44,591 nucleotides of DNA from a virus, in the IMG/VR virus record IMGVR_UViG_3300020034_000033, positions 1 through 44,591 of that record. One strand, given 5' to 3'. Positions 11,420 through 37,236 of the stretch are shown in pieces (position 1 is the first letter of the stretch; each line of letters begins with the position of its first letter). The notes below the pieces were generated by a model that did no database searches, was not told the origin of the DNA, and saw nothing but the letters and a program-made list of their open reading frames with translations. A program made the position numbers and the translations under genes.

Positions 11420-11428
11420 AGCTCACTC

Positions 11429-11901: not shown

Positions 11902-12125
11902 CACACTGCCTCACACTTGAAGGGCTCGAACGACCAGATATGCATCCCGGGCTCGCTTAAGCGCTTGACGTGCTCGGCGCAGATTGGGAACCCGGCTGAA
12001 GCCGTGAACTTGATCGCACGCCCGTGGAATTGCTCGATACGCTCGCCACACTGCACGCGGCCGATCGCCTCGTTATCGTCGCCGGTCGGCACGCCGTCGA
12101 CTATCCACTTGATTTGACATTTCAT
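11901..12125 (-). CDS. Hypothetical Cys-containing protein (74 aa)
   Basis: Starts MKCQIKWIVDGVPTG at ATG 12125 behind GGAGGAACACCCG, a very good ribosome binding site. Four cysteines (residues 3, 27, 50 and 71 by count) could form a metal site. Overlaps both neighbours by start/stop fusion. Confidence 0.65.
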   Translation of the reverse strand: MKCQIKWIVDGVPTGDDNEAIGRVQCGERIEQFHGRAIKFTASAGFPICAEHVKRLSEPGMHIWSFEPFKCEAV

Positions 12126-12235
12126 CGGGTGTTCCTCCGATTGTCGATCGCGACTGCGATCAAGGCGCCAAGCATGAAGGGCGCACACCATGCGGCAAAG
12201 ATCGCGCATGTGATCAGTGTTGCGGTGTTGCTCAT
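12122..12235 (-). CDS. Micro membrane protein (37 aa)
   Basis: A 37-codon frame starting MSNTATLITCAIFAAWCAPF, one membrane helix followed by DNRRNTR. Joined by TGATG to the upstream 31-aa gene and by ATGA to the downstream 74-aa gene. The ribosome binding site is weak, so coupled translation is likely. Confidence 0.5.
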   Translation of the reverse strand: MSNTATLITCAIFAAWCAPFMLGALIAVAIDNRRNTR

Positions 12236-21201: not shown

Positions 21202-22301
21202 TGCCTTTGCTCGCGTTCGTGGTGGCGGTCGCGTGCATTTCCCCGTTCGCTGATGGAGGCACCGGGACGCGATGGTCGATATTGAGCATTACGGTGCCTT
21301 TGGTTTTGATGATGACGCGCCCCCGCGCATGGACGATTGGGGACTTGCTGGGGCTCCTGTTTTTATGTTGGGCGTCGTGTTCTCTGCTGTGGACGCCAGG
21401 AGTAGGACAGGGATTGTTTACGCTGTGGAGCTTGGTTCTGTTCTTCACGATCGGCTGGCTACCTACATGCGCAATGAGCGATATATACAAAGGGTTGGGG
21501 CTGGGACTGTCGCTAAACGGGTTGATTGTAGCCTTGCAGGTTGCTGGCTATCATCCGGTTACTGAGGCGATCCCGCCGGCAGGGCTGTTCTACAACAAGA
21601 ACGCGGGAGCCGAGATGACGGCACTCGCGCTAATCGGGGTTCTCTCACTCTCATGGCGATGGTGGCTCGCATGCAGTCCGATGCTGATCACGTTGCTCGC
21701 TTGGCCGGGGAATACGTTGTCGCGCACGCCGCTTATTGCCCTGGGAGTGACCGGCTTTTTCTGGACGTGGCGACGGTCGAAGCTCTACGCATCCGTGGTT
21801 GCCCTATCTGTGGGGCTGTGCTTCGTCTCGTTTGTGTTGTTGCAGAGCCGAGCCCCGAGCGCGAACATGCGCATGGAGCTGTGGGGCGACATGATCCGAC
21901 ACTTGGGTTGGTTGGGCCATGGGGTAGGCTCGACTGATTGGTTCTACCCGTTCATGGAGTTTGCCCACAATGACTTCCTCCAAATCGCCTTCGAGTTTGG
22001 CGCTGTTGGCGCGGTTCTGTGGGTTGGGTTTATCGTTTGCTGTCTTGCTGGTCCTGTGCGTGTCGAGAGCTATATTGTCATCGCTTTCCTCTGCATGGGC
22101 GTCTTCGCATTCCCGCTTTTCATGCCCGGGAGCGTCTTTGTTGCCGGTCTTGCCGCTGGCCATCTTCTTCGCCACCGGCGTCCTGTATTCGATATCATGG
22201 TTCTACGCGAGCTGGACGATTTACGAGGCAGTGAGCACGCCGGGCACGATCGAAGAGAAGATAGCTGGGTACGAGCGCGCGGCTTCGGTTTTCCCCATTA
22301 A
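21201..22301 (+). CDS. O-antigen ligase/polymerase-like membrane protein (Wzy/WaaL superfamily)
   Basis: A 366-aa protein with about ten hydrophobic segments and the superfamily landmarks: GLFYNKNAGAEM (128-139), RMELWGDMIR (224-233) and FAHNDFLQIAFEFGAVGAVL (254-273), the Wzy_C loop with HND. Bacterial homologues join or polymerise O-antigen or other glycans at the inner membrane. In a phage it could alter the host surface (receptor masking, superinfection exclusion). The ATG overlaps the portal stop (TGATG). The last ~45 residues lie over another hydrophobic frame. Confidence 0.85.
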   Translation: MPLLAFVVAVACISPFADGGTGTRWSILSITVPLVLMMTRPRAWTIGDLLGLLFLCWASCSLLWTPGVGQGLFTLWSLVLFFTIGWLPTCAMSDIYKGLGLGLSLNGLIVALQVAGYHPVTEAIPPAGLFYNKNAGAEMTALALIGVLSLSWRWWLACSPMLITLLAWPGNTLSRTPLIALGVTGFFWTWRRSKLYASVVALSVGLCFVSFVLLQSRAPSANMRMELWGDMIRHLGWLGHGVGSTDWFYPFMEFAHNDFLQIAFEFGAVGAVLWVGFIVCCLAGPVRVESYIVIAFLCMGVFAFPLFMPGSVFVAGLAAGHLLRHRRPVFDIMVLRELDDLRGSEHAGHDRREDSWVRARGFGFPH

Positions 22302-22464
22302 GACTGCCTACCGTCAGCTCCCCGCCTACACGCTGACCTACATCGCTGTGGGCATGGGGATAGCCGAAGCCCGAGAACCTGCTATAAGAGCCGTTCGGAA
22401 CGCTTTGACGTGGAACCCAAATTCCTATTATCTTCGGCACCATCTTGAGAGGATGCAGCAATGA
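22141..22464 (+). CDS. Membrane-anchored TPR-like protein overlapping the ligase gene (107 aa)
   Basis: Different frame from the ligase gene, overlapping it by 161 bp. The best start is TTG 22141 behind GGGAG (8-nt spacing); no ATG is available. N-terminal membrane helix (PVLPLAIFFATGVLYSISWF), then TPR-like helices (EEKIAGYERAASVFPIKTAY; RAVRNALTWNPNSYYLRHHL). Many O-antigen ligase-like enzymes carry TPRs at their C-terminus, so this may be a separated partner, or the tail of one protein reached by frameshift. The stop overlaps the next start (ATGA). Confidence 0.7.
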   Translation: MPVLPLAIFFATGVLYSISWFYASWTIYEAVSTPGTIEEKIAGYERAASVFPIKTAYRQLPAYTLTYIAVGMGIAEAREPAIRAVRNALTWNPNSYYLRHHLERMQQ

Positions 22465-22655
22465 AACAGTTCCTATGGATGGTCGCCGGTGCGTTGGTTG
22501 CTGCCGCGGTGGGCTCCGCGGTTGGGCAGAACCAGACGACGCCGAATGTGATCCCTGGCTGCATCTACAACTCGGTGCCGCCGACGCTCGCCGATCGCCA
22601 GCAGGCTGTGCTGCAGTGTGACGCCAACGGCAACCTGCGGGTGACGGGATCGTGA
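22461..22655 (+). CDS. Exported small protein (64 aa)
   Basis: Sec-type signal peptide (MKQFLWMVAGALVAAAVGSA, likely cut near AVG/QN), then a ~40-residue mature part with YNSVPPTLADRQQAVLQCD. The same motif occurs near the N-terminus of the next protein (YNLVRPTLATRQQAVFQ) and is typical of phage tail/structural proteins. Starts inside the previous stop (ATGA). Confidence 0.7.
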   Translation: MKQFLWMVAGALVAAAVGSAVGQNQTTPNVIPGCIYNSVPPTLADRQQAVLQCDANGNLRVTGS

Positions 22656-24325
22656 AAAAATTACTGCTGGCGTTCTGCCTGATCGCAGGTGCTGCGGTAG
22701 CGCAGACGCCTGCGGAAATTTGGGGTGGGCTCTACAATCTCGTGCGGCCGACGCTGGCCACTCGTCAGCAAGCCGTGTTCCAGATGTCGAGCACGGCGTC
22801 GCTGCGCCTAGCGGTGGCGGCGTTCGACCCCGCCGCGCAGACCCTGATCAACGCGATGGTGCCGACGCCCCAGCTCGGGCGCCAGCTCCTGATCAATCGC
22901 ACGATCGTGGCGCTCAAAGCCGGCGGCGTGTGGCCATTGCTTGACGCGCTCTATCTGACTGCCGCGGCCAGCGAGCAAGCCGCGCGGCTTAATTGGGTAA
23001 ACCCTGCGACGTTCACGCTCACTGCTAGCGGATCGGTGGCGTTTCAGGTTGATCGCGGGTTCACTGGTAATGGTGTGAACAGCTACAACAATACGCAATT
23101 CACTCCCACAACGGCGCCGTCGCCTAAGTACGTGCAGGATAGCGCGCACCTGTCGGTGTGGTCTAACACTCCCGGGCCTCTTAACCCCGTTGACATGGGC
23201 AACTCGCAAGCGTTTTTGCAGACGCAACTGGTGGCGGGGAATATCTTTCGCGCACAGATAAATGCGGGGGTGTCGCCGTCAAATTTTACGACACCTAACA
23301 CCGCGGGGCATTTCATAGGCCAGCGCGTGGATAGCGTAACCACTACTGGTTACTTCAACGGTACTTTTCTCGGGTCTGGTGCGGGGCCGAGCCAAGCGCT
23401 CACTGCTACGGCTATTGCTCTTGGGGGGCGCCCCTTCGGTACGCAATCATTCAGCACGCGCCAAATTGCAGCGGGGTCTATCGGTGCGTCGCTCACAGCG
23501 GCGCAGGCGAGTGCGTTCTACAACGCGCTTGCCGGCTACATGGCCGGCGTGCAGATGGGCTACGACCCGGATGCGAAGGCGATCATTGCAGCGATGGTGC
23601 CGACGCCTTCGGTGGGCCGACAAGCCCTGATCAACAGCACGGTGGTGCAGCTCAAAGCTGCGGGCATTTGGGACCAGCTTGATCTGCTGTATTTCTTTGC
23701 CGCGGCCAACCAGCAGAATGCGCTGCTTAATTGGAAGAACCCGGCAACTTTTACGGCGACGGCAGTGAACTCGCCAGCGTTTGCTGTCGATCGTGGGTTC
23801 ACGGGCAACGGGGTAGATGCGCGCGTAGACAGCAATTACACGCCTTCAACTAACGGCGTTCAGTACACGCAGGACAATGCGTCGCTGTGGGGATATTCGC
23901 TTACAGCAGCCACAGGGCAGGTGCATGACATGGGGCGCATTACTGTCCCTGGTATGGCAATTATCTTGCGGGCATCGTCGGGAAACACTGCTGCTTTTGC
24001 AAATGACGGTACGCAAATTTCGACTAATCCAACTCCTGACGGGACGGGTCTTTGGGGCATTCAACGCAGGGGCGCGACAGATAAAAGATACTGGCGCAAC
24101 GCCGCGCAGATCGGCGCAACACTGACGACAGCTTCGACAGGACTACCTGCGGGCACGCTTTGGTTTTGTGGGGCGTCCGCGTCGGGTGCGCCTACGTTTT
24201 CCACTAGACAGTTTGCATTCGGCGCTGCGGGGGCATCATTGGTTGGTAGGGAAGCTGCGTTTTACAATATTGTCCGCAGTTATTTGCTTGCGGTTGGTGC
24301 AGCATCAGTGGGGGATACACCGTGA
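22652..24325 (+). CDS. Tail-fibre-like protein with signal peptide and tandem duplication (557 aa)
   Basis: GTG start overlapping the previous stop. Signal peptide MKKLLLAFCLIAGAAVA then QTPAE. After a PTLA-RQQAV motif come two homologous ~240-residue units: the first around FDPAAQTLINAMVPTPQLGR ... LNWVNPATFTL ... VDRGFTGNGV, the second around YDPDAKAIIAAMVPTPSVGR ... LNWKNPATFTA ... VDRGFTGNGV. Similar modules occur in prophage tail/fibre proteins. Probably receptor- or surface-related. The signal peptide is unexpected for a virion part. Confidence 0.75.
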   Translation: MKKLLLAFCLIAGAAVAQTPAEIWGGLYNLVRPTLATRQQAVFQMSSTASLRLAVAAFDPAAQTLINAMVPTPQLGRQLLINRTIVALKAGGVWPLLDALYLTAAASEQAARLNWVNPATFTLTASGSVAFQVDRGFTGNGVNSYNNTQFTPTTAPSPKYVQDSAHLSVWSNTPGPLNPVDMGNSQAFLQTQLVAGNIFRAQINAGVSPSNFTTPNTAGHFIGQRVDSVTTTGYFNGTFLGSGAGPSQALTATAIALGGRPFGTQSFSTRQIAAGSIGASLTAAQASAFYNALAGYMAGVQMGYDPDAKAIIAAMVPTPSVGRQALINSTVVQLKAAGIWDQLDLLYFFAAANQQNALLNWKNPATFTATAVNSPAFAVDRGFTGNGVDARVDSNYTPSTNGVQYTQDNASLWGYSLTAATGQVHDMGRITVPGMAIILRASSGNTAAFANDGTQISTNPTPDGTGLWGIQRRGATDKRYWRNAAQIGATLTTASTGLPAGTLWFCGASASGAPTFSTRQFAFGAAGASLVGREAAFYNIVRSYLLAVGAASVGDTP

Positions 24326-26664
24326 AGCGACTTCTACTCGCCGCTGTCCTGGCGCTCGCGCCGTTTGAAGTCGCCCACGGGCAGAATACGTTCTTTGCTG
24401 CCAGCCCTGGCGACATAATCTATCGCGGACCTTCCGGGTGGGCTCCCGTGCCGGGTGCGCAGGCGGGCGCGATCTTGCAATCGCAAGGCCCGACTGTTGC
24501 ACCTGCATGGACGTTCGACCTGTCGTCGGTGTCGCAGCTCAAGCTGCCGTTCATGACCACGAACACCGTGCTCGGCAACGTCACCGGTGGCACGGCCAAC
24601 CCGACGCCGATCACGCAGACGCAGTTCCTCGATACGCTTGGGTACGACATCGTGCGGCCGCCGGTGATTGGCGGCATCCCCATGAAGGCGACGTTCGGCG
24701 TCAACGGCTCGTGGCAGGTGCTGCAACCCGGACCGGCGGGATGGGTGCTGCAGTCGAATGGTCCCGGTGCTGATCTTACCTGGGCGTTCAATTCAACCAC
24801 CGCGACGCCGGGTGGCGCGGGCCTGTGCTTGGTTAGCACCGGGCCGACGACGCCGCCGGTCTATGCCATTTGCCCGATCACGTCGGCGAACCTGACAGCA
24901 ACCGCGCCGCTCGCGTTGAGCTACGGCACGCCGACGAACCTCGCGTTGACGGGTATTGTTGATGTGCCGCACGGTGGCACGGGCAACAGCTCGCTTACGA
25001 GCAACGGCGTGCTAATCGGTGCTGGCGTCGGTGCAATCACGACCAAGACCGGCACCAACGGACAGGTGCTGATGTCGGTCGCTGGCGTGCCGACGTTCAC
25101 GTCGACGCCGTCGATCGCTACGTCACTGACTGTGCCGTCGATCACCACGGCGGCGATCAGCACAGCGACGATGACCGCGACCAGCACGGTAGCTACTGGA
25201 CCGCTGACTGTGACCGGCGCTGGTTCTGTCTCGGGCACGTTCGCCTCGGGACAACAGACGATCACGGGCGCGCAGTTCACTACCGGCAACGTCAATTCGA
25301 ATGGGATCATGACGGCGTCGACCTCGATAGTCGCGCCGATCATTTACGGTGGCAGCGCGGTGGGCTCGACGCTCGCGCTCCGTCCGACCTCGGGCGCGGG
25401 CTCGGGTGGTGCGCGCGTGAACGTGCAGGCTGGCACGAATGGTGCGCTGCAGCTCGCCGAGTTCTCGGGCATCACTGCCTCGTCCTCGCTGGCGCTCGGC
25501 GCTTCGGGCTCCGTGGCGGGGCAGCTCTTGCTCAATGGCAACACGTCGGGCGCTGTGACTATCCGGCCTACGCCTGCCGCGGGCAATTGGCAGTTCGTTT
25601 TGCCAACTACGCCGGGCCTGAACAACCAAGTGCTCACGTCTTCGGGCGGCGGCACGATGACGTGGTCGACGCCGGCCGGCGGTGCTGCGCTTGTGTCGCT
25701 GAACCCCAACTTCATCAACGGGGCTCTTGTCACTTCTGCGTCGGCTGGTGCGCTCACGATTGCCGTTAAGACCAATGCAAGCGGCGGTGCGTCGGACCCT
25801 TCGGCGGGTGACCCCGTCACCGTAGTGTTTAACAACACAACCGCGCTCGGCAGCGGCGTGCAGACGATGTCGCTTACGGCGGCGACATCGATCGTGATCC
25901 CTTCAACTGCAACGATGGGCTTTACCGCTGCCACGGCCGCGCGCTTGTGGATAGTTGGTTTCCGTGACAGTTCCGGGCCGACGTTCCGATTGGGCGTGTG
26001 GAACGGGTTCGACACGATTAATATTTTTCCGCTGATCGAAGGGCTTGGCACGTCCACCACGATCAGCGCGACAGCGGACAACGCGGGGATTATCTACTCG
26101 AACACCGGCGTGACGAACATGCCGATGACCATTCTTGGCTACATCGAGTGGAATTCTTCGGGCGTTGCTGTGCCGGGGACGTGGACGACTACGAACCTGT
26201 TTAAGACACAGCTCCTGACCCCCGGGACTAAGTTGCCCGGTGATGTGGTGCGGTCCTATTATTTTCTTGACACGACTGCGTCGGCGACTAACACCCTGAC
26301 TTACGCGGCAACAAACACCACACAAGCTGTGATCTTGTCGAGCGCCGCGAATGTTGTGCGCCTGCAGGCAAATGGAACGCTGACGACTATTAGCACAGAT
26401 CAAGCTGCGCAGGCGACGCTGTTCCGTAATGGTACGCAGATTGGTAGCGCAGTGGGGCTGATGTCGGCTTTGCAGGTGGCGGGCTCGCCGACGCTCACTC
26501 AGGTAGACATGCCGGCGTCTATGTTTGCGCAGGATTTCCCGAACACGATTGCTTCAACTACGTATTTTGTGGCAATCTTGAGCACTAATGCGGGCTTTAA
26601 TGCTACGTGGAACGTAGCACCGGTGTCGAACGCCATAATTACAATTCAGGAAATCATGCGATGA
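24322..26664 (+). CDS. Large fibre-like protein with signal peptide (780 aa)
   Basis: GTG start overlapping the preceding stop. Signal peptide MKRLLLAAVLALAPFEVAHG then QNTFF. The mature chain is Ser/Thr/Gly/Ala-rich and beta-repetitive, with typical fibre modules (VPHGGTGNSSLTSNGVLIGA; TNGQVLMSVAGVPTFT). The C-terminal ~250 residues look like a distinct globular head (IVGFRDSSGPTFRLGVWNGF...). Likely the main host-binding fibre or adhesin. Confidence 0.78.
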   Translation: MKRLLLAAVLALAPFEVAHGQNTFFAASPGDIIYRGPSGWAPVPGAQAGAILQSQGPTVAPAWTFDLSSVSQLKLPFMTTNTVLGNVTGGTANPTPITQTQFLDTLGYDIVRPPVIGGIPMKATFGVNGSWQVLQPGPAGWVLQSNGPGADLTWAFNSTTATPGGAGLCLVSTGPTTPPVYAICPITSANLTATAPLALSYGTPTNLALTGIVDVPHGGTGNSSLTSNGVLIGAGVGAITTKTGTNGQVLMSVAGVPTFTSTPSIATSLTVPSITTAAISTATMTATSTVATGPLTVTGAGSVSGTFASGQQTITGAQFTTGNVNSNGIMTASTSIVAPIIYGGSAVGSTLALRPTSGAGSGGARVNVQAGTNGALQLAEFSGITASSSLALGASGSVAGQLLLNGNTSGAVTIRPTPAAGNWQFVLPTTPGLNNQVLTSSGGGTMTWSTPAGGAALVSLNPNFINGALVTSASAGALTIAVKTNASGGASDPSAGDPVTVVFNNTTALGSGVQTMSLTAATSIVIPSTATMGFTAATAARLWIVGFRDSSGPTFRLGVWNGFDTINIFPLIEGLGTSTTISATADNAGIIYSNTGVTNMPMTILGYIEWNSSGVAVPGTWTTTNLFKTQLLTPGTKLPGDVVRSYYFLDTTASATNTLTYAATNTTQAVILSSAANVVRLQANGTLTTISTDQAAQATLFRNGTQIGSAVGLMSALQVAGSPTLTQVDMPASMFAQDFPNTIASTTYFVAILSTNAGFNATWNVAPVSNAIITIQEIMR

Positions 26665-27011
26665 CGCTGACCCCGCAACAAGTTGCAGGTGCGTTCCGTT
26701 GGATTATAAACTTCGGTGGTGCGGCATTGTTGGGCTACTTTGCTGCGCGCTTGCGTTTGACGGACGATCAGGTGAAACAGCTTACCGACCTGTTGACCCG
26801 CCCGGACTTCTGGATTTCGGCGTTTGGGGCAGTGTCGTCGGTGGCGGCGTTGATCAAGGGTCTATTCAGTCACAACAAGACGAATACAATAGCCGCCGCA
26901 GCTTCTCAGCCCGAAGTGAGAGCTGTCGTGACGACGGAGGCAGTCGCTACGAGTGGCGCCCTCGCCGAAAATCCAAAGGTCATTTCACCCGTAAACGCTC
27001 CCGACGCATAA
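26661..27011 (+). CDS. Holin-like membrane protein (116 aa)
   Basis: Two hydrophobic segments, RWIINFGGAALLGYFAARL (13-31) and FWISAFGAVSSVAALIKGLF (51-70), separated by a charged linker and followed by a polar tail. This is the layout of small phage holins that permeabilise the inner membrane. Directly before the lysozyme gene, which supports a lysis role. ATG 26661 overlaps the fibre stop (ATGA). Confidence 0.78.
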   Translation: MTLTPQQVAGAFRWIINFGGAALLGYFAARLRLTDDQVKQLTDLLTRPDFWISAFGAVSSVAALIKGLFSHNKTNTIAAAASQPEVRAVVTTEAVATSGALAENPKVISPVNAPDA

Positions 27012-27025
27012 TCGGATGTGCTCCC

Positions 27026-28033
27026 ATGGCAGCTCCTAGCTATCGTTCAATCTGGCCGACCTACTCGCAAGAACTCGACAATATTAAATTCACGCGCCCC
27101 GCGTCCGCGGCCGCTGCAGCAAAGAAGCTGCTGGCGAACAAGGACAAGTATCAGGCGGTCGAAGCCAAGACCGGCGTGCCTTGGTGGTGGATCGCCTGCA
27201 CGCATAACCGCGAGAGCGATGCAGACTTCTCGACGCAGCTCGCGCAGGGTGACCCGCTCAATCGCGTGAGCGTCAACGTCCCGAAGGGTCAAGGCCCTTA
27301 CTACGGCGACGACGCTTGGGAGCGCGCGGCGATCGTCGCGCTTGAAGATCACAAGCTGAACAAGGTTGTCGACTGGCGGCTTGAGAAGGCGCTGTATTGG
27401 TGGGAGAGCTTCAACGGTTGGGGCTACTATAACCACGGGCGCCCTTCGGCCTACGTGTGGGCAGGCACCAGCACCTACGATCCGCCGGCCGGACCCGGCG
27501 GCAAATATGTTTCCGATGGCGTGTGGAGCGGCTCGGCTGTGGATCAACAGCTCGGCTGCGTCGCGGTGCTTGCAGCGCTGATGGACCTAGACCATAGCAT
27601 TGTCATTGAGCGCGAGACGCCCGAAGGCGTGGCTGACGAGCCGAAAGAGCCGACGCCCGTGCAGCCCGCGCCCGTAGTCCCAACGCCGGTCAATGTGCCG
27701 GCGCAACCCCAGGAGCCTCCCGTGTCTACTCAACCAACCCCGACGCCTGTGCCGGCGCCAGTCTCGCCCGGCTTCCAGATCGACGTGCAGAAGATCAATG
27801 GTTTCATCGACATCGGCTCGAATGTTCTGAATATGATTTCGGCATTCGTCCCGCAGGCTCGGCTCGCACAGCCGTTCGTGCCCATCGCAAAAGAACTTGT
27901 GGAGTTCGTCGGCGAGATTAGCCAGGGCAAGGTCACTGCGGCTAACGCCTTCACCGTGATCGCAGGCCACCTGCACGACATTGGCGACCAGCTCGCTGCA
28001 GCCGGCGCAGCGCTTAAGGCACAGAAGGCTTGA
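27026..28033 (+). CDS. Endolysin (COG5526-like lysozyme family) with C-terminal helical domain
   Basis: A 335-aa protein. The N-terminal ~190 residues resemble the phage lysozyme family: TGVPWWWIACTHNRESDADF with E63 as probable catalytic acid, then GYYNHGRPSAYVWAG. A Pro/Thr/Val linker (~203-245) leads to an amphipathic helical C-terminal domain (VQKINGFIDIGSNVLNMISA...). No signal peptide, so release is through the holin. ATG 27026 has a weak ribosome binding site, 14 bp after the holin stop. Confidence 0.82.
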   Translation: MAAPSYRSIWPTYSQELDNIKFTRPASAAAAAKKLLANKDKYQAVEAKTGVPWWWIACTHNRESDADFSTQLAQGDPLNRVSVNVPKGQGPYYGDDAWERAAIVALEDHKLNKVVDWRLEKALYWWESFNGWGYYNHGRPSAYVWAGTSTYDPPAGPGGKYVSDGVWSGSAVDQQLGCVAVLAALMDLDHSIVIERETPEGVADEPKEPTPVQPAPVVPTPVNVPAQPQEPPVSTQPTPTPVPAPVSPGFQIDVQKINGFIDIGSNVLNMISAFVPQARLAQPFVPIAKELVEFVGEISQGKVTAANAFTVIAGHLHDIGDQLAAAGAALKAQKA

Positions 28034-28233
28034 AGAGGGCACCACGACCTGTCGGTCGCGGAGCTTGATAAGGCGACGTTCGACAGTCCGTTCTATCGGA
28101 ACCGTGGCTAATTGACATTGGCCACGGCTCCCGCTTAAAGTGCGCTCTCGACTGGTGACCGTAAGTCACTGACCCGATTGACGCCCGGAAGGCGTTTTCG
28201 TTTTGCAGACGTAATCTGCTGGAGAGAGTGATC
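28034..28233 (+). other. Non-coding spacer between lysis and capsid genes
   Basis: 200 bp without a normal gene. Holds the hairpin CCGTGGC/GCCACGG (28102-28108 with 28121-28127) and the terminator listed separately. In the lysozyme frame after its stop is a short open stretch (LSVAELDKATFDSPFYRNRG) that looks protein-like but has no start codon. Confidence 0.6.
28181..28203 (+). terminator. Rho-independent terminator after the lysis cassette
   Basis: ACGCC-CGGAA-GGCGT stem-loop followed by TTTCGTTTT, between endolysin and scaffold genes. Confidence 0.7.
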
Positions 28234-29052
28234 ATGCCGAAGGAAATCGCAGATGAGCAGGAAGAACTCCGTCGACGTCAGGCCGCGAACGACTCCGGGC
28301 AAAGTGACGATGCCGGCGGGGAGGAAGACGAAGGGGGGCACGACGACGATGAAGGCACTCCCGCCGAGCAGCTTGGCGGGGAAGAAGGGGATGGGGAACA
28401 AGGCGAGCTAGGTGGCGATGACGGCGACGGCGCCGATGACGGCGACGGCGAACGTGAGCGACGACAGCCAACGCGACGAGAGAACCGGGTAGCCCGGCTT
28501 GCGGAAGAGAGGGCTACCGAGCGCGCCCGAGCAAACTTGCTCGAACAGGAAGTTCAGAGGCTGCGATCCGCCGAGCTACAGCGCGGGCAGCAGATGACGC
28601 AGGAGCAAGAGGAAGCCCGGTTGGCTCTCATGTCTCCCGAAGAGAGAATGGATTATCGGCTCCAAAAGTCGGAGCGGCTCGCGCAACAGAGGGAGGCCAA
28701 CCTACGGCGGGAAATTGCGATCGGGCAGGATGCAGCTTCGTTCAACGCGAAAGCGCAGGTTCACCCGGTCTACAAGAAGATGCAGGCAGTAGTTGAAGCT
28801 GAATTTCAAAAGCTGCTTGCTGCAGGAACCCCCGCTGATAGGGAGACGATCATGAAGTACAAGCTTGGCGAGCGAATGCTGGCGGATGCCGAGAAGCGCG
28901 GTGGCAAGGATCAACGCCGCGGGCAGGAGCGTGTCGAGCGTGAACGGACGGGTCCGACCAATGGTCGGGGTGCCGTACAGCCGCAACGCGGTGTGCGAAA
29001 CAAAGACGAAAGCGCAGCGCGTAGGGCTCGGTTGGAGAAGATGACTTTCTGA
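28234..29052 (+). CDS. Scaffolding-like protein (272 aa)
   Basis: Immediately before the major capsid gene. Very acidic Asp/Glu/Gly-rich N-terminal ~75 residues, a coiled-coil middle (RLAEERATERARANLLEQEV) and a basic C-terminus (RRARLEKMTF). Charge polarity, helical content and position fit a scaffold that guides procapsid assembly. ATG 28234 is preferred over GTG 28228 because of GGAGAG spacing. Confidence 0.8.
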   Translation: MPKEIADEQEELRRRQAANDSGQSDDAGGEEDEGGHDDDEGTPAEQLGGEEGDGEQGELGGDDGDGADDGDGERERRQPTRRENRVARLAEERATERARANLLEQEVQRLRSAELQRGQQMTQEQEEARLALMSPEERMDYRLQKSERLAQQREANLRREIAIGQDAASFNAKAQVHPVYKKMQAVVEAEFQKLLAAGTPADRETIMKYKLGERMLADAEKRGGKDQRRGQERVERERTGPTNGRGAVQPQRGVRNKDESAARRARLEKMTF

Positions 29053-29090
29053 TTGGGCAGTAGCCCGATCTATCATAGGAGAGGGCTACC

Positions 29091-30440
29091 ATGGCGACTA
29101 ATCAGGCGTCGGGCTTTACCGCCGACATCGTACAATACATCGCGGAAGAGACGCTACCACTCGCCCGGCGACAGCTTGTTGTCTATCGCTTCGGCGACCC
29201 GCTCCGTCTCCCCAAGGGCCGCGGCACCACCTATACCGCGACCCGCTACCTGCGCGTCCCCCTGCCGTTCGCGCCCCTGTCGGAAGGCGTCCCGCCGATC
29301 GGCGAGACAATGTCGATCCAACAGGTGTCGGCCGTGGCACAGCAGTGGGGTGACAAAATCACCATCACTGACGTCGCCGAGCTGACGATCTATCATCCGC
29401 TGTTCGAGAAGGCGATCGAGCTGATCGGCCTGCAGATCGGCGAGACGCTCGAACGCAACACCTTCAACACCCTCAACGCGGGTACTCAAGTCAACTTCGT
29501 CAACTCCCGCGGCTCGCGCGCCAACCTGCAGGCGGGCGACGTGATCAACCCGTTCGAAGTCACTCGCGCCTACGCGCAGCTCTACACCATCGGAGCCCCG
29601 CGCTATAACGGCGATGAAATGACCGACATGAAGCTCGACGCCGACGCCGGTGGCGCCAAGGCTTCGAGCAACCCGCGGTCCATGCCTCACTACGTGAGCG
29701 TCATGCATCCGTTCCCGATGGCCGATTTCCGACAGAACAGCACGGTGCAGACCGCGTGGTCCTACTCGGACATCAACCGCCTCTATAACTTTGAGGCGGG
29801 CGAGTGGAACGGCATTCGCTTCGTTGAGAGCAACATGGTCCCGAGCTGGACTGGTGTTGCTGCGCAGCAAGGCACTCCGGGTTCGGCCGGCGCGCTCGGC
29901 ACGAACACCATGTACGTGCAGGTGACGGGCTCGGACACGCAGAACCAGTTCGAGAGCCAAGTGCTGCAGATCAGCAACGCGATCAGCGTGGTTGGCCCGA
30001 ACGGCTCCATCCAAGTGACCGTGCCCTCGACGGCCGGTTACACGTGGAACGTCTACATCTCGACCAGCCCGACCATGGTTGGCAGCTCGCTTGGGCTGTC
30101 GGTCTCGGGTCCGACCACCGGCCCCCTGCAGGGTCAAGCCGTGCAAATCCCCGGCGGCGCGACTGTCGTCATCACCGGGCTCGGCACCGCGCAGCAGCCG
30201 CCGGCAGCTCCCACGACCGGGATCACCGTCTACCCGACGTACATCTTCGGCCGCGGCGCCTACGGGCAGGTCATGCTCTCGGATGCCGAATTCACCTACC
30301 TGACGGACGCGGACAAGTCTGATCCGCTCAACCAGCTCCGGATCGTCGGTTGGAAGTGCTTCTACGGCACCCTGATCGAGAACAACCAGTTCTTTATGCG
30401 CGTGGAAAGCACCAGCGCGTTCAGCTCGACCTTCGGCTAA
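29091..30440 (+). CDS. Major capsid protein, N4-gp56 family
   Basis: A 449-aa HK97-fold capsid subunit. Matches N4-gp56-type sequences: YIAEETLPLARRQLVVYRFG, GRGTTYTATRYLRV, EGVPPIGETMSIQQVSAVA, QWGDKITITDVAELTIYHPL and GDVINPFEVTRAYAQL. Strong ribosome binding site (AGGAGAGGGCTACC). An internal region at ~255-365 (EFQSQ... beta-rich, Ser/Thr/Gly) may be an inserted Ig-like decoration domain. A strong hairpin follows the gene. Confidence 0.92.
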   Translation: MATNQASGFTADIVQYIAEETLPLARRQLVVYRFGDPLRLPKGRGTTYTATRYLRVPLPFAPLSEGVPPIGETMSIQQVSAVAQQWGDKITITDVAELTIYHPLFEKAIELIGLQIGETLERNTFNTLNAGTQVNFVNSRGSRANLQAGDVINPFEVTRAYAQLYTIGAPRYNGDEMTDMKLDADAGGAKASSNPRSMPHYVSVMHPFPMADFRQNSTVQTAWSYSDINRLYNFEAGEWNGIRFVESNMVPSWTGVAAQQGTPGSAGALGTNTMYVQVTGSDTQNQFESQVLQISNAISVVGPNGSIQVTVPSTAGYTWNVYISTSPTMVGSSLGLSVSGPTTGPLQGQAVQIPGGATVVITGLGTAQQPPAAPTTGITVYPTYIFGRGAYGQVMLSDAEFTYLTDADKSDPLNQLRIVGWKCFYGTLIENNQFFMRVESTSAFSSTFG

Positions 30441-30459
30441 TCCGTCTGACGACGCCTTC

Positions 30460-30482
30460 CCCCGGGGATAAGCCCCGGGGGC
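30460..30482 (+). terminator. Strong intercistronic hairpin after the capsid gene
   Basis: CCCCCGGGG-ATAAG-CCCCGGGGG, perfect 9-bp GC stem without a T-run. Probably transcript-end stabilisation or partial termination to set capsid mRNA levels. Confidence 0.65.
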
Positions 30483-30498
30483 CATTTGGGAGGCAACG

Positions 30499-30792
30499 AT
30501 GGCGCTTATTACGCTCGGCACGAACGCAACCACGACCCTTAACGCGCTTGTCTGGAACCCGGCATCGGCCGCGGCAGACGTGGCGCAGATCAACAACAAC
30601 ATCAAAATGCAGAACGCCGTTGGGAAGCTTATTCCCGGTGCGTTCGCAAAGAACGGCCGCCTACAGCTCCCCGGGCGCCGTGGGTTCATCCTCTTGCTGC
30701 CCGGCGATTATGTCGCCTATGATGGCGCAGGATGGCCCATCGTGGTTTCCGCCTATTCGATCGCCAATGGTGGCGGTTGGACCCATACGTAA
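30499..30792 (+). CDS. Small head protein (97 aa)
   Basis: Ribosome binding site GGGAGGCAACG. Beta-rich small protein (MALITLGTNATTTLNALVWN...; LPGRRGFILLLPGDYVAYDG) directly after the capsid gene; a head decoration or completion role is inferred from position. Confidence 0.7.
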   Translation: MALITLGTNATTTLNALVWNPASAAADVAQINNNIKMQNAVGKLIPGAFAKNGRLQLPGRRGFILLLPGDYVAYDGAGWPIVVSAYSIANGGGWTHT

Positions 30793-30800
30793 GGTGTCCC

Positions 30801-31262
30801 ATGGCAGACAAGAAAGCCCCGCCGGCTAAAGGGCCTGCGAAGTACGACCCGAAGCTTGACTATGAGCTGTTGCTGACCGCTGATGAGCGCGCGGCGATCG
30901 AGCTTGAAGTCGAAGCTGAAGAGAACGAAAAGCTCAAAGAGCTTGCTCGGGTGCAGTACAAGGCGGCGTTTGCTGCCAAGAAGGCTCGCGCGCTGGGGCT
31001 TCTCGAACCGCAGGTCACCATCACGATCGACCTTGCCGAGTTCGCCAACGACGTCCGGCTCGACGGCGTGATCTACCAGCAGGGGATGACATACACATTC
31101 CCGGCGTCGACCGCGCAGTACGTGTTGCACATGATGCAGAACACGTTCAAGCATGAACGCGAAATCAACGGCAAATCCGAGCATGACCGTCGCCGTCCTC
31201 GGAACATGACGCTCAACGCGCATGACGTTGCAACCCCAGCGACAGACTTAAACGCGAGGTAA
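30801..31262 (+). CDS. Hypothetical virion/assembly protein (153 aa)
   Basis: Starts at ATG 30801 behind AAGGTGTCCC. Charged helical N-terminal part (ELEVEAEENEKLKELARVQY), then a beta segment (QVTITIDLAEFANDVRLDGV). Lies in the head-neck gene block. Family unknown. Confidence 0.7.
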   Translation: MADKKAPPAKGPAKYDPKLDYELLLTADERAAIELEVEAEENEKLKELARVQYKAAFAAKKARALGLLEPQVTITIDLAEFANDVRLDGVIYQQGMTYTFPASTAQYVLHMMQNTFKHEREINGKSEHDRRRPRNMTLNAHDVATPATDLNAR

Positions 31263-31263
31263 G

Positions 31264-31719
31264 ATGAAAGAGACCGCTGTGGTGGCATCGGAAATCCCGG
31301 CAATCGGCATCACCTACCAGTTGGAATTGCCGGGAAAAAAGGGACTGACGTTTCAGACGCACGTTGCACAGACCGATACGCAGGAGAGTATCGACAAGGT
31401 TGTCGACAAAATCCGATCGGTCGCTGAACGCCAGTTCTGGTACAACATGATCGACGTGCTGACCCGGGAAGCCGAGCAGCAGGAGCGGATCGCGATTGAC
31501 CACCATAATCGGGTGGTGGTCGTAGAGCAGAACAAGGAACGGGAGTGGAAAGCCAAACAGAAGCGCGGCGAGCCCACTCTGTCCACGACTGAGATAACGC
31601 AGCGGCATCAGGCCATGGCGAACGCCGAAGAGGCCAAGCGCCGAGCGCAGACTGCCAAGGATGACTTGCGGAAGGCTTACGGAAAAGCCGGGGTAGAGGT
31701 TCCAGCGGAGTTGAAGTGA
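31264..31719 (+). CDS. Hypothetical protein with coiled coil (151 aa)
   Basis: Starts one base after the upstream TAA, with GAGG just before. Beta-rich N-terminus, then an alpha-helical, strongly charged C-terminal half (EQNKEREWKAKQKRG, ANAEEAKRRAQTAKDDLRKA). Stop overlaps the next GTG. No family recognised. Confidence 0.7.
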   Translation: MKETAVVASEIPAIGITYQLELPGKKGLTFQTHVAQTDTQESIDKVVDKIRSVAERQFWYNMIDVLTREAEQQERIAIDHHNRVVVVEQNKEREWKAKQKRGEPTLSTTEITQRHQAMANAEEAKRRAQTAKDDLRKAYGKAGVEVPAELK

Positions 31720-32423
31720 CCGCCGCCCAAATCATCACTATGGCTTTGCAGATCGCGAAAATCCCTGGCTACACCAGCCAGGGATTAGTCATGCTGAACG
31801 CGATCTTGCTTGAGCTGTCGCAGGACTACGATTTTGAAGTGATCCGCAAGTCGGCTTACTTCAACTTCAACACAGCCGCTGCAGGCAACGGCTACTCGGT
31901 AGCGAGTGGTCCGAACGTCATGCCGGAAGACTTCATCCGGCTGCACCGCAATGGCTCGTTTTATTACATCTCGAATGTTCCTTACACGCTGATTGGCGTT
32001 AAGCAGGAAGAGTTCGACAGTTTCGTGCAGCAGGCGGGGCTGCAGTCCTACCCGTACCTCGCCTATGTCGACGTGACGCAGATCGTGGGGCAGGAGCCCG
32101 GGCTGTACGTTTGGCCACCGGCCTCGGGCGCCTACCCGTGCACGATCCGCTACAACGCGCGCCAGCCCGACATCACCGACACTGCGTCGACGCCGTGGTT
32201 CCCCAGCTCGTCCTACCTGATCACCCGGCTCGCGGCCGAGATGATGCCGTTTGCCGGCGATGACCGTGCAGACGGTTTCCTTGGCAAAGCCGAGCTGCAG
32301 CTTCGCAAGTATCTCAACATGAAGGATGACCCCGAGACGGCGCCCAAGCGCGTGCTGCTGGATCGGAAGTTCTTTGGCCAGAATACAGCAGCGCTAAAGA
32401 ACACGAAGCAAATCGGGTGGTGA
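31716..32423 (+). CDS. Head-tail adaptor (neck) protein (235 aa)
   Basis: Pattern typical of podovirus/P22-gp4-like or tail-tube-A-like adaptors: a helical start (AAQIITMALQIAKIPGYTSQ), LLELSQDYDFEVIRK, then beta segments and a helical C-terminus (ELQLRKYLNMKDDPETAPKR). GTG start behind GGAG, overlapping the previous stop. Its place between the capsid block and the nozzle-like protein supports the call. Confidence 0.7.
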   Translation: MTAAQIITMALQIAKIPGYTSQGLVMLNAILLELSQDYDFEVIRKSAYFNFNTAAAGNGYSVASGPNVMPEDFIRLHRNGSFYYISNVPYTLIGVKQEEFDSFVQQAGLQSYPYLAYVDVTQIVGQEPGLYVWPPASGAYPCTIRYNARQPDITDTASTPWFPSSSYLITRLAAEMMPFAGDDRADGFLGKAELQLRKYLNMKDDPETAPKRVLLDRKFFGQNTAALKNTKQIGW

Positions 32424-32426
32424 CCC

Positions 32427-34172
32427 GTGGCGCTCCGTAACTCCAAGCCTCTCCCCTTCGCCCCTTCGGGCTGCACTGATGCGCTCGATAGCAGCGACGT
32501 GCCTGCGGGTTCGATGGCTGCGCTCACGAACCTGATCCCCGACCCGACGACGCGCAACCTGTTCCAGTGTCGCCCCGCCGCGTTCCAGCTTAACGAGGGC
32601 TTCGGCCTGTTGCCTGATGCGGGCTTCATCTCGGTGATGAAAGTCGTGGGCAACCGCGTCTATGGGATGGTGGCAACGTCAACTATACCCGGGCGCGATC
32701 AGCCGTTCTGTTATGACATCGCCGCGGACGCGTTCGTGCCAATCAGCGGAACGCAAGACGCGAACACCCTGCCGGTTAGCCCGTCGCCCACGGGTGAGTG
32801 GCAGCCGCCGATCATGGACACGGTTGGCAAATATGTTGTCGTGGCACACGCGGGCTTCGAAGATGCTGCGCTAAAAGTGGCGGGGCTGATCGACATCAGC
32901 GACCCGGCTGATCCGGTGTGGTCGATTACTGATGGAGACGATAGCGGTAGCGGCGAGCCGTTTTTGTTTGCACCTATTTCTGTCGCGGCGTTTGGCGATC
33001 GGGCGTACTACATGGTCCCCGGCGCGACTGCCCCCGGCAGCATCGTCCTGCCGGCAGTTGTGTTCTCGGACATTCTTGATCCAGCCAATAACAATATAAC
33101 GATTAGCGCGGTCAATTCGAATGTCATCACGTTTGACGATAGCGTGGCGCTCACTGCGTTTGGTAAGCAAGGGCTGAACAACCAGCTCGGCGGCATCGTG
33201 CAGGCGCTGTTCGTGTTCAAGGGCGTCACGAATATCTACCAGATCACAGGCGATCCTCTTGGTGGTGTGCTGGTTGCAAACCCCTCGCCGCCGCCCGACC
33301 TAATTCCTGTCCTACCCTCTGGTGTCGCCCCGCTGCAGCGCAACGCGCTCAACGTGGTGACTGGGACGAATGCGCCGCTGTCGGTGTGCTCAACGCCGAA
33401 GGGCATCACGTTCATGTCGCCCGAAGGCTTCCGCCTGATCGACACCATGGGCAACGTGGGCGACCCGATCGGCGTTGCAGGTACGGGCGTCACGGTGCCG
33501 TTCACCTATTCCGTAGTGCCTTCGCGCGTGGCAGCTTGTGCTGGCGGCAACACGCTGCGCATCTCGACGCAGAACGGGTTCGCGCCGGGCACGCCCAATG
33601 AAGAGTGGTTCTTTAACTTCGCGCGCGGTGTATGGACTGGTCCACACACGTTCCCCAGCTCGCTGATCCAACCCTACAATAACACGTTCATTAAGACGCC
33701 AATCGGCGTGCTCGCGACGCTGTGGCAGTCCGACGCCGCGCAGGTTCTCAACAGCACCTATGTCGAGAACGGTACGCAGCTCACGTGGCGCTATCAGACG
33801 TCGCTGCTGCCGAATACCGACCAGATGTGCCAGAATAATATGATCGAGACGACGTTCACCTGCGCGCTCACAGCCGCGGCGGGGCCAGTTAGCTGTTCGG
33901 TGCAGGATCAGGATGGTGTTGTGCTCAATAGCGTCACGATCCCGCAGCAGGGCGAGGCGACGCTGTGGGGGCAGTTCCAATGGGGTCAAGCCTCTTGGCT
34001 TGGCGCCGCGAGCGCGTTACAGCCGCGCCAGATGTTTTGGACCGCGCCGATCGTGTTTCAGCGCATGGCGTTCACTGCGGTTGGCCAGTGCGGGCAGAGT
34101 GTCCGCGTCGGGCGCACCTACTTCCGTTACGAAATGCTCGGCTATCTTCTCCCTTACCCGGTGTCAGCATGA
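32427..34172 (+). CDS. P22-gp10-like nozzle / packaged-DNA stabilisation protein
   Basis: A 581-aa protein with repeating beta-propeller-like blades (GNRVYGMVATS; GKYVVVAHAGF; GDRAYYMVPGA; GITFMSPEGFRLIDTMGNVG; RVAACAGGNTLRISTQNG; GVLATLWQSDAAQ). It resembles the head-completion/nozzle proteins that close the portal in P22-like podoviruses. GTG start. Its stop overlaps the collar gene start (ATGA). Confidence 0.75.
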   Translation: MALRNSKPLPFAPSGCTDALDSSDVPAGSMAALTNLIPDPTTRNLFQCRPAAFQLNEGFGLLPDAGFISVMKVVGNRVYGMVATSTIPGRDQPFCYDIAADAFVPISGTQDANTLPVSPSPTGEWQPPIMDTVGKYVVVAHAGFEDAALKVAGLIDISDPADPVWSITDGDDSGSGEPFLFAPISVAAFGDRAYYMVPGATAPGSIVLPAVVFSDILDPANNNITISAVNSNVITFDDSVALTAFGKQGLNNQLGGIVQALFVFKGVTNIYQITGDPLGGVLVANPSPPPDLIPVLPSGVAPLQRNALNVVTGTNAPLSVCSTPKGITFMSPEGFRLIDTMGNVGDPIGVAGTGVTVPFTYSVVPSRVAACAGGNTLRISTQNGFAPGTPNEEWFFNFARGVWTGPHTFPSSLIQPYNNTFIKTPIGVLATLWQSDAAQVLNSTYVENGTQLTWRYQTSLLPNTDQMCQNNMIETTFTCALTAAAGPVSCSVQDQDGVVLNSVTIPQQGEATLWGQFQWGQASWLGAASALQPRQMFWTAPIVFQRMAFTAVGQCGQSVRVGRTYFRYEMLGYLLPYPVSA

Positions 34173-35260
34173 AGAAAATTCTCGCCTGCCTAGCGGCTGC
34201 AGCTCTACTCGCCGGCGCCTATGGCGTGCGGATCGTGAACGCAGGCATCACCTGCACGCTTCCGTTCCAGCTACAGAACAACACCACGGCCGACGCTACG
34301 CAGGTCATGGCGAACTACAACGCGCTGGTGACGTGCTTCACGAACGCCGCGGCTGCAGGTGTGAACAACGACATCACCGCGCTGATCGGCTTGACCACGC
34401 CGCTAGCGCCGGCCTCGGGCGGCACGGCGAGCTACTACGGGACCGGTGGCGGGATCGCGGCTTCGCAGTCGGTGGCGTCGCTCGCGCCTACAGGCTTCAC
34501 GCTTGCGACCGGACGCCGGGTCACGTTCAAGCCGAGCGTAACGAACGTGTCTGCGGTCACGCTCAACGTGAACGGCGGCGGGGCCGTCGCGGTGTGGCGC
34601 AACACGCCCTATGGGGCTGGCCCGACTGTCGGTGGCGAGCTGACAATCAACACGATGGTGACGGTGGTCTACGATGGCACCCGTTGGGTCATCGAAGGCA
34701 CGATGTTCTACCCGGGCACGATCGCTGACTTTGCCGGGCCTGATATTAGCATCCCCGCCGGCTGGATAGTCGCGCAGGGCAGCACACTGCCCGTTGCAAC
34801 CTTCCCGCAACTCTACGCGGCGCTCGGCAACACCTACGGCGGGGATGCCTCGAATATTGGTATCCCCGACCTGCGCGGCCGCGGCACCGCCGCTGTCGAC
34901 AACGGGTCAGCGCGAGCCACTAACTGTGGCGGCGGCACTCTCGCGGGCAGTTGCGGCGTGGGTTCGACGGCGCTCTCGAAGGCCATGATTGATGATTTTG
35001 TGCTCAACACATCGGTGCTTGGGGTGTCGATCAGCGATCCGGGCCACACGCATGACATTTCGGCAGCCACTACACCCGCCGGAGCTATTACGGGCTTTAT
35101 GCAACCCTCGACCAGTTCAGGGCTCGGCAACCAACCCACGCAAGCCGCCGCTACTGGTATTAGCGCGAGCCTGACAGGCGCAGCGTTTACCGGCGGCGGC
35201 GGTGCGGGCCTAAGTCTTTGGACGCCGGCCCTCATTGTCCAGAAGATCATAAAGCTGTAG
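34169..35260 (+). CDS. Tail collar domain protein with signal peptide (363 aa)
   Basis: Signal-like N-terminus (MKKILACLAAAALLAGAYG). Then QLQNNTTADATQVMANYNAL, a fibre module, and a phage tail-collar domain: AGWIVAQGSTLPVATFPQLY, ALGNTYGGDASNIGIPDLRG, ending DPGHTHDIS and LSLWTPALIVQKIIKL. Collar domains usually sit at the tips of short or long tail fibres. The combination with a secretion signal is unusual. Confidence 0.85.
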   Translation: MKKILACLAAAALLAGAYGVRIVNAGITCTLPFQLQNNTTADATQVMANYNALVTCFTNAAAAGVNNDITALIGLTTPLAPASGGTASYYGTGGGIAASQSVASLAPTGFTLATGRRVTFKPSVTNVSAVTLNVNGGGAVAVWRNTPYGAGPTVGGELTINTMVTVVYDGTRWVIEGTMFYPGTIADFAGPDISIPAGWIVAQGSTLPVATFPQLYAALGNTYGGDASNIGIPDLRGRGTAAVDNGSARATNCGGGTLAGSCGVGSTALSKAMIDDFVLNTSVLGVSISDPGHTHDISAATTPAGAITGFMQPSTSSGLGNQPTQAAATGISASLTGAAFTGGGGAGLSLWTPALIVQKIIKL

Positions 35261-35324
35261 ACGAACAAGGAACTAGGCTCTATCCTTCACCCCGGACACG
35301 AAGTCCACCAGCTAGGAGATCACC

Positions 35325-35903
35325 ATGTTCAAGCGACTTCTCTCGACGGCCGCCGCGGTGCTCTGCGCTGGCGCGATTGCGTTTGGTGCCAACGTCCCGC
35401 TCATCGTCGGGCCAGTGCCCGCTGCGGACGTCCAGTCCTTCCTCAACCAGTTGATCACGTCGTTCAACGGCGCAACTGGCAAGATCAGCGCCTCTACGCT
35501 GTCTGCCGGTAATACGGCCACGACCGCAGAGGTAACCCTGCAGTCCTACACTGTTGCGCCAAACCAACTCGCTGCCGGCGGCGACAGCATGCGCGTCACC
35601 TGCTGGGGCACTGCTGCCGGCGGTGCGGCCAAGACCGCGAGGCTCTACTTCGGCGCCTCTGTGATCACCGCTTCGTCTTCGGCCGGCGGTCAGTGGCAGC
35701 TCTCGCAGGTCATCACGCGTAAGTCGGCTACCACGCAAGGCTACACCGGGCAGGGCATCTACAACGTCTCCCCGTCCGTGAACTCGGTTGACGGTGCCGA
35801 GACATTGACTGCCGCGGTGCTCGTGAAGTGCACCGGTCAGTCTGCCGGCGGCGCTGCCAACGAAGTGATCGCTAACGGCATGGTGGTCGAAGCGCTCAAA
35901 TAA
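35325..35903 (+). CDS. Exported virion-like protein (192 aa)
   Basis: Strong ribosome binding site (TAGGAGATCACC). Signal peptide MFKRLLSTAAAVLCAGAIAFG. The mature part is beta-rich, with Ser/Thr/Ala (LQSYTVAPNQLAAGGDSMRV, GGAAKTARLYFGASVI) like phage head-fibre or tail proteins. Followed by a strong terminator. Not recognised further. Confidence 0.7.
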   Translation: MFKRLLSTAAAVLCAGAIAFGANVPLIVGPVPAADVQSFLNQLITSFNGATGKISASTLSAGNTATTAEVTLQSYTVAPNQLAAGGDSMRVTCWGTAAGGAAKTARLYFGASVITASSSAGGQWQLSQVITRKSATTQGYTGQGIYNVSPSVNSVDGAETLTAAVLVKCTGQSAGGAANEVIANGMVVEALK

Positions 35904-36637: not shown

Positions 36638-36776
36638 AGGCTTGACTGATCGTTCGCCCTCGGCGTCTGATGCGAGCACGAAAGTGCCATCAGGTGCCGG
36701 GAGCGTAAACGACAATGCAACACGTTCAGGACTTAAAGGGGCGACCGTTCGATCCCCTGGACCTCGAAACGCCTAG
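36603..36776 (+). CDS. Small Ser/Thr-rich protein (57 aa)
   Basis: ATG 36603 behind GGAG; bridges the 77-bp gap between its neighbours, overlapping both. Composition Ser/Thr/Lys/Arg (MSTKVKSTSLLEGLTDRSPS...), probably disordered. Moderately supported by position and ribosome binding site. Confidence 0.45.
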   Translation: MSTKVKSTSLLEGLTDRSPSASDASTKVPSGAGSVNDNATRSGLKGATVRSPGPRNA

Positions 36777-37236
36777 CCTGCAGTGGGAGCGCCTTGGCCC
36801 AATAGCCCGGGAACTCCCACCGCTTTTTAAGAAGCACTACGACGAGCTGGCGACGCACAAAGACGCGATCCAGCTCGAACCCGATTGGGACAAGTATTTC
36901 GCGCTCGATTTCGACGGTAACCTGCGCATCCTCACGGTGCGCGACAACGGGATGCTCGTCGGCTACCTCTTCCTGATCGCCGGTCCGGGGCTCCACTACG
37001 CCACGACCCTGCAGGCACAGGTCGATATGTTTTGGCTCGACCCGCTCTATCGCGCCGGCTGGTTCCCCATCACGATCTTTACCGAGCTGCTTCGCTACTG
37101 CCGGGAGCTTAAAGTCACCCGGCTGTACGCTTCGGAGAAGCATCATTTTGAGCGTGACCGCGGGGGAGTGGGCATGATATTCAAGCGGTTAGGGTTCGAA
37201 GTTCAAGATATAGTTTGGGCCATCCAATTGAGGTAA
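36715..37236 (+). CDS. GNAT-like acetyltransferase (173 aa)
   Basis: GNAT fold pattern: NLRILTVRDNGMLVGYLFLI (beta4/5), LDPLYRAGWFPITIFTELLR, LKVTRLYASEKHHFERDRGG and FKRLGFEVQDIVWAIQL at the C-terminus. Such genes occur in many podophage structural clusters; substrate unknown. The canonical Q/RxxGxG/A loop is poorly matched. Confidence 0.75.
   Translation: MQHVQDLKGRPFDPLDLETPSLQWERLGPIARELPPLFKKHYDELATHKDAIQLEPDWDKYFALDFDGNLRILTVRDNGMLVGYLFLIAGPGLHYATTLQAQVDMFWLDPLYRAGWFPITIFTELLRYCRELKVTRLYASEKHHFERDRGGVGMIFKRLGFEVQDIVWAIQLR

Follow-up and report, generated by a model that had tools for sequence, protein, structure and literature searches.

Five genes of a podovirus sequence, IMG/VR record IMGVR_UViG_3300020034_000033, begin with Sec-type signal peptides (SPs) that are conserved in related phages (the record, 44,591 bases analyzed over its whole length, is called "the window" here). 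It is fairly probable that the clade to which this phage belongs, one of uncultured soil and water phages, sends its receptor-binding fibers via Sec to the periplasm, where they would fold with disulfides and from where they would join virions built in the cytoplasm at the time of lysis. Within this proposal, Sec export, cleavage by signal peptidase I, and oxidation are well supported by comparison of sequences; the disulfides themselves, the attachment to nozzle or portal, and the timing at lysis are steps that we infer. Tailed phages are taken to build whole virions in the cytoplasm, so that an exporting clade would, if real, add an assembly step outside that compartment.

Signal Peptides on Five Genes

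The SPs were called with a rule-based scorer that considers a positive n-region, an uncharged h-region, and the -3/-1 rule. Among the 31 called plus-strand genes of the window, scores of 4.0 to 6.7 were obtained for exactly those at 22461, 22652, 24322, 34169, and 35325; the gene for the nozzle-type tail protein is the sole further one to score at its called start (1.3), and a few others have an SP-like string at alternative starts only. At the chance rate of 2.5%, determined from 4830 antisense open reading frames, at least five SP genes among 31 would be expected with p = 9e-4, conservation not yet counted. All five genes show the n-region, the h-region, and the small residues at -3 and -1 that typify substrates of Sec and signal peptidase I. 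With a slash at the predicted cleavage site, the N termini read MKQFLWMVAGALVAAAVGSAVG/QN (22461), MKKLLLAFCLIAGAAVA/QT (22652, GTG start), MKRLLLAAVLALAPFEVAHG/QN (24322, GTG start), MKKILACLAAAALLAGAYGVRIVNA/GITC (34169), and MFKRLLSTAAAVLCAGAIA/FGAN (35325). A preliminary description of the window had attributed Sec SPs to these five genes, and it is borne out both by the N termini, which are as claimed, and by their being the only plus-strand genes above threshold. The start codons of the first four overlap the upstream stop, indicative of translational coupling, and 35325 has its own Shine-Dalgarno site.

The products, all encoded on the plus strand, differ widely in size and architecture. 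The shortest, SP64 (22461..22655; SP codons 22461-22526), is a predicted exported protein of 64 amino acids (aa) whose mature part is made up of PG-C-IYN..PPTL..Q..LQ-C-D, a motif holding a single cysteine pair (C34, C53). In SP557 (22652..24325; SP codons 22652-22702) the YN-PPTL motif is followed by two tandem domains of ~240 aa that match phrog_26223/18498 (unknown function) and that the close relative L063 (8716-10577) encodes individually, in two genes that both have an SP. The fiber-like SP780 (24322..26664; SP codons 24322-24381) combines a repetitive shaft and a cysteine pair (C169/C184) with a C-terminal module resembling that of the fibers of "family A" in the relatives L004, L007, and L010. 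Family A is represented in the window by a fiber with a tail collar domain (34169..35260; SP codons 34169-34243), for which cleavage at VNA/GITC was placed by homology from the family alignment, and which has a cysteine pair in the N-terminal domain (C29/C56) and two further cysteines (C253/C262). Last comes SP192, of "family B" (35325..35903; SP codons ~35325-35381; cysteine pair C93/C169).

Conservation in Related Phages

Relatives were retrieved from IMG/VR with the nozzle and portal proteins as queries, not with the SP genes, giving 61 by nozzle and 37 by portal, and ~100 related loci overall. Gene starts in these relatives come from a simple caller, and kinship among them is lowered, not removed, by the dereplicated and per-cluster tests reported below. 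The five SP gene families keep an SP in 75/79 of the relatives' members (collar 45/48, SP64 10/11, SP192 10/10, SP557 7/7, and SP780 3/3), while the SP sequences themselves diverge. By comparison, SPs occur in 0/353 members of eight core virion families, with none in the nozzle (0/63), adaptor (0/60), capsid (0/54), portal (0/42), scaffold (0/40), or terminase (0/33); the families of 37241 (0/31) and 36715 (0/30) are likewise SP-free. Across the relatives, SPs are found on the genes directly behind the nozzle and, in the stretch from portal to scaffold, on the majority of large genes. At the family A boundary, alanine occupies position -1 in 56/67 and position -3 in 48/67 sequences, with SP length and sequence varying.

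For 17 relatives, the greater part of the sequence could be read. All 10 of those with an exported family A fiber carry SP genes, usually several, and 5 of the 7 with an SP-less family A fiber hold another SP gene of at least 150 aa. In a sample of cultured phages, by contrast, SPs were found in 0/36 annotated or likely tail and fiber genes; the sample also includes one hypothetical gene, located beyond a lysozyme, with an SP.

Cysteine Parity in the Mature Proteins

In an oxidizing compartment cysteines should be paired, and their parity thus provides a test independent of the SP call. The test set comprised 156 dereplicated SP-bearing proteins of at least 150 aa, in which even, non-zero counts were compared with odd ones. 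Of the 147 mature proteins with cysteines, 137 have an even number and 10 an odd one (p = 1e-29), as against 86 even to 160 odd in core virion proteins and 129 to 161 in other SP-less phage proteins. The excess persists with one protein per sequence cluster (~28 even to 3 odd over 37 clusters, p = 5e-6) and is uniform in the SP192 cluster, where all 35 members have an even count. Within family A alone, SP-bearing members show 47 even to 5 odd and SP-less members 7 to 12 (Fisher p = 1e-5). In the window, four of the five mature proteins have an even count, the exception being SP557.

The SPs are themselves informative in this respect. Where the SP contains an odd number of cysteines (43 cases), the count is even in 40/43 mature parts and in just 3/43 full-length proteins; evenness that appears only after SP removal means that the SP does not contribute to the pairing, as its cleavage would predict. 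The SP is thus probably removed and the mature protein probably resides in an oxidizing compartment, a reading drawn from residue counts. More generally, an even cysteine count offers a cheap and independent way to check export predictions for viral dark matter.

Homologs Lacking Signal Peptides as Natural Controls

Family A was collected over 88 distinct N-terminal domains, of which the first 48 residues were scored. The 69 SP-bearing members have two cysteines in 53 cases, none in 16, and never one, and the positions of the pair shift jointly (4/31, 3/31, 1/36, 4/32, or 4/30). The N-terminal pair is absent from all 19 SP-less members (0/19 versus 53/69, p = 5e-10; dereplicated at 65%, p = 8e-5), most of which also lie directly behind the nozzle. 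These SP-less homologs start at the residue equal to the mature N terminus of the exported form. This is illustrated by two proteins that are 67% identical over 241 residues: the SP-less one of L135 begins MT/TIIGTLPF and the SP-bearing one of L120 reads AIAQA/QIVGTLPF at the corresponding place.

Other families offer similar cases. In 26 domains with the YN-PPTL motif that typifies SP64, the cysteines number two or none, and never one; Sphingomonas phage Scott has an SP-less form of the motif with no cysteine. A homolog of SP557 in Microcystis phage Mwe-JY13, directly behind the portal, has neither SP nor cysteines. In the 93.7-kb contig L107, two adjacent genes have the SP64 motif, each with a cysteine pair; the size of this contig means that the motif is not limited to 44-kb podoviruses.

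Export to the periplasm had been one of several options in the preliminary description, and it is the option strongly supported by these sequence patterns: conserved SPs with a conserved cleavage site, even cysteine counts, and the lack of the pair in SP-less homologs.

Probable Fiber Identity of the Exported Proteins

The labels "fiber" and "collar" given earlier to the five proteins hold for 34169, the only one of the five with a recognized tail domain, which matches PF07484 (58.5 bits against a cut-off of 24, E 6e-16) and virion fibers in the PDB; for the other four, which match no named family, the label derives from position, architecture, shared C-terminal modules, and unnamed PHROGs. 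The family A profile matches the virion tail fibers 7z47 (E 2e-9) and 8vbx (E 2e-5), as well as 1ocy. In an AlphaFold model of 34169 (mean pLDDT 61, moderate), an extended segment with C29 is followed by a helix with C56, and the fold matches those of cyanophage A-1(L), Pa193, and T4 short fibers as well as viral collar and tail-fiber models. A model of the SP557 domain (mean pLDDT 42.5) was too poor for use. Across family A the N-terminal domain is conserved and the C-terminal modules are exchangeable.

Large non-core fiber candidates without an SP are few in these operons, and the exported genes make up most candidates, so that the receptor-binding proteins are to be expected in the exported set. 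That the exported proteins are the receptor-binding parts of the virion is, on the present comparisons, the economical reading. A defense or toxin role was also considered and set aside, with no PADLOC or NCBIfam match.

Proposed Pathway and Alternative Explanations

In the pathway envisaged, the receptor-binding and fiber-type products of the five genes would cross the inner membrane through Sec, and signal peptidase I would cut the SP at the mature fiber N terminus. The fibers would then fold in the oxidizing periplasm with their cysteines paired, the predicted C29-C56 disulfide linking the N-terminal extended segment to the first helix, while heads, portal, and nozzle would take shape in the cytoplasm. 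Once the cell is opened by holin, lysozyme, and disruption of the envelope, the virions would encounter the fiber pool and attach the fibers last. A meeting at lysis is suggested because heads are cytoplasmic, exported proteins without an anchor would stay periplasmic, and other phages can add fibers last. A broader proposition, that a widespread clade of uncultured podoviruses assembles on both sides of the inner membrane, with gain or loss of an SP switching a fiber between routes, seems to us only slightly better than an even bet.

Several observations weigh against the proposed pathway. About a quarter of the SP-bearing family A members are without the N-terminal cysteine pair, and the mature part of SP557, with its single cysteine, departs from the even rule. 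The model of 34169 is of moderate confidence only. The SP calls rest on a rule-based caller. Finally, the placement of the mature proteins on virions is a step that we infer, for a clade without a cultured close relative, and a soluble exported decoy would leave equal sequence signatures.

The last point defines an alternative that is improbable, if far from negligible: that these are soluble periplasmic fibers rather than virion parts, binding host receptors so as to spare progeny from debris or bar superinfection, while the virion adsorbs otherwise. The evidence for export and oxidation applies equally to such decoys, a lectin-like Laminin_G_3 domain occurs among the exported genes of one relative (L065), and four or five such genes per genome are many for one short tail. 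Yet in relatives the position behind the nozzle is taken by SP-less homologs, the family matches virion fibers of solved structure, SP-less genes in the operons offer few candidates for the receptor-binding protein of the virion, and features that would hold a decoy at the surface are missing. Specifically, no lipobox (Cys at +1) is present in 46 SP-bearing proteins of at least 150 aa, no outer-membrane anchor domain was found by Pfam in the five window proteins, and a C-terminal aromatic residue occurs in just 8 of the 46. The lack of a lipobox and of a C-terminal outer-membrane signature likewise tells against the earlier suggestion of surface-anchored adhesins, and the lipoprotein and surface-anchor readings were rejected on these grounds.

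Retention of the hydrophobic N terminus as an anchor holding the fiber in the membrane, also raised in the preliminary description, appears very unlikely. In its favor, a few SPs are long or have a late Lys/Arg, as in the GVRIVNA of the window, but the mature boundary shows Ala-x-Ala, parity emerges only when the SP and its cysteines are left out, and SP-less homologs begin at the mature residue; the uncleaved-anchor reading was rejected accordingly. The same grounds disfavor removal of the N terminus during virion assembly, as does the resemblance of the segments to ordinary Sec SPs. Least credible of all, by a little, is the view that the segments are hydrophobic N-terminal assembly arms that never reach the translocon: one relative (L204) has an SP-like N terminus even on its major capsid protein, but without an oxidizing compartment it is difficult to account for the cysteine parity and for the missing pair in SP-less homologs.

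Relation to Known Systems

The pIII and pVIII virion proteins of the Ff inoviruses have Sec signal peptides, and pIII acquires its disulfide-bonded fold in the periplasm and only then enters the particle. The window phage resembles these phages in having Sec SPs on putative virion proteins and in the periplasmic disulfide folding proposed for them. Ff particles, however, are put together at the membrane and leave by extrusion, without lysis, whereas the genes of the window describe a tailed double-stranded DNA podovirus with cytoplasmic heads and lysis genes, in which the fibers alone would be exported. Tailspikes of the P22 type are added last to finished heads, which is possible also outside the cell. 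They share with the proposed pathway the use of receptor-binding proteins as last-added parts and differ from it in lacking SPs and folding in the cytoplasm. Tail collar fibers (PF07484; T4 gp12-like), including 7z47 and 8vbx, share with family A the collar domain, the shaft motif GANSDITSLxGLTTPL, a conserved N terminus, and variable tips; the difference lies in the SP, which the sampled fibers of cultured phages lack.

Two Manatee Spring phages (MW202477 and MW202637) are distant relatives with an SP-like start on the gene directly after the nozzle, so that the trait extends beyond close relatives. Their capsid protein is only 26-27% identical, the gene is not annotated as exported, and they have no cultured host. 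A full-text literature search gave no publication that describes Sec signal peptides for the fibers of tailed phages, a result that is not proof of novelty as subscription journals were mostly outside the search. Two podovirus papers apply SignalP or LipoP to lysis genes (PMC9144972, PMC3765740). If the proposed pathway is correct, seeking signal peptides in lysis genes alone misses part of phage biology, infectivity would be tied to the Sec and Dsb systems of the host, and periplasmic chemistry (disulfides, perhaps glycans) could harden the fibers.

The Wzy_C Neighbor

An accessory gene downstream of the portal and upstream of the exported cluster (21198..22301, plus strand) encodes a protein with multiple transmembrane segments that resembles O-antigen ligases and O-oligosaccharyltransferases (Wzy_C, PF04932, 32.9 bits against a cut-off of 31.7). 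It is followed by a small protein with an N-terminal transmembrane segment and a TPR-like tail (22141..22464, plus strand; predicted from sequence), coupled to SP64. This arrangement (21198-22464) recurs beside exported fibers in several relatives, with Wzy_C adjoining exported fiber genes in the window, L063, L069, L006, and L010, and weakly in L004.

The Wzy_C protein may glycosylate the fibers or alter the host surface. An addition to the proposed pathway, in which it is an O-oligosaccharyltransferase acting on exported fibers in the periplasm, like pilin-specific enzymes encoded beside the pilin gene, is unlikely. Its position in the window and several relatives fits, and Wzy_C occurs in 7/30 records with an exported family A fiber or fiber cluster versus 0/7 with an SP-less family A fiber. 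This difference is not significant, though, and the gene is absent from most exported-fiber records. The proteins, moreover, are short (~370-400 aa) and match Wzy_C alone, a domain of WaaL, Wzy, and PglL/TfpO enzymes that also covers O-antigen ligases and polymerases; a changed host O-antigen is the simpler reading. Glycosylation as a general reason for export was rejected, with Wzy_C in a minority of records.

Gene Order, Relatives, and Minor Observations

The gene order in the window is terminase, portal, the Wzy_C membrane protein, the small TPR-like protein, SP64, SP557, and SP780, then holin-like, lysozyme-like, scaffold, capsid, small, adaptor, and nozzle genes, and then the SP-bearing collar fiber (34169), SP192, and ejection-type genes; several of these labels were assigned from position. 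The core proteins, all encoded on the plus strand and lacking SPs, include the portal (18889..21201, or from 18892; phrog_332), the major capsid protein (29091..30440; phrog_1357, E 5e-34), a head-tail adaptor-like protein labeled from position (31716..32423), and the nozzle-type tail protein (32427..34172). The last lies directly upstream of the family A fiber and served as the syntenic anchor in relatives; its positional counterpart in a Manatee Spring phage carries the annotation phage stabilization protein. Candidate lysis genes, also on the plus strand, follow SP780: a holin-like protein (26661..27011), assigned from its position and a hydrophobic segment, and a lysozyme-like protein (27026..28033), assigned from position and sequence, with no SP at its called start and no family match.

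In the phage collection searched, two weak matches (25% identity) were obtained with the portal and none with the nozzle, which places the window phage in an uncultured group. A host search with the portal against genome contigs gave no match. The nozzle profile found three binned contigs, labeled Burkholderiales (with an SP), Dehalococcoidia (with an SP, without the N-terminal pair), and Methylococcaceae (no SP), so that no host is assigned to the window phage. Searches of viral contigs gave no locus for SP557, and one each for family B and for the Scott-type motif.

Some relatives show unusual N termini. A major capsid protein that begins MNKLNITLTFALSLGLGLFRPAVTNA/STGGGG is encoded on the reverse strand of L204 (record G037; 10734-12179, counted on the reverse complement); this SP-like start comes with a strong Shine-Dalgarno site and has no plausible alternative. 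Tat-like signals (TRRGFIAG, DRRKFIKA) stand among Sec-type neighbors in L199 (11973-12299) and L200 (6919-7707; record G035), and the L200 protein has an odd cysteine count. In Microcystis phage Mae-JY35 (L233, 10393-11625), the gene after the annotated tail fiber starts MVLFILAFLLSASPASA/AMTCDV, which is SP-like and has no positive charge. In the window itself, a 314-aa protein with no family match is encoded on the minus strand at 43111-44055, at the end of the late region and opposite to it, and an acetyltransferase-like gene (36715-37236; phrog_1249), never with an SP, recurs in the late operon of ~30 relatives.

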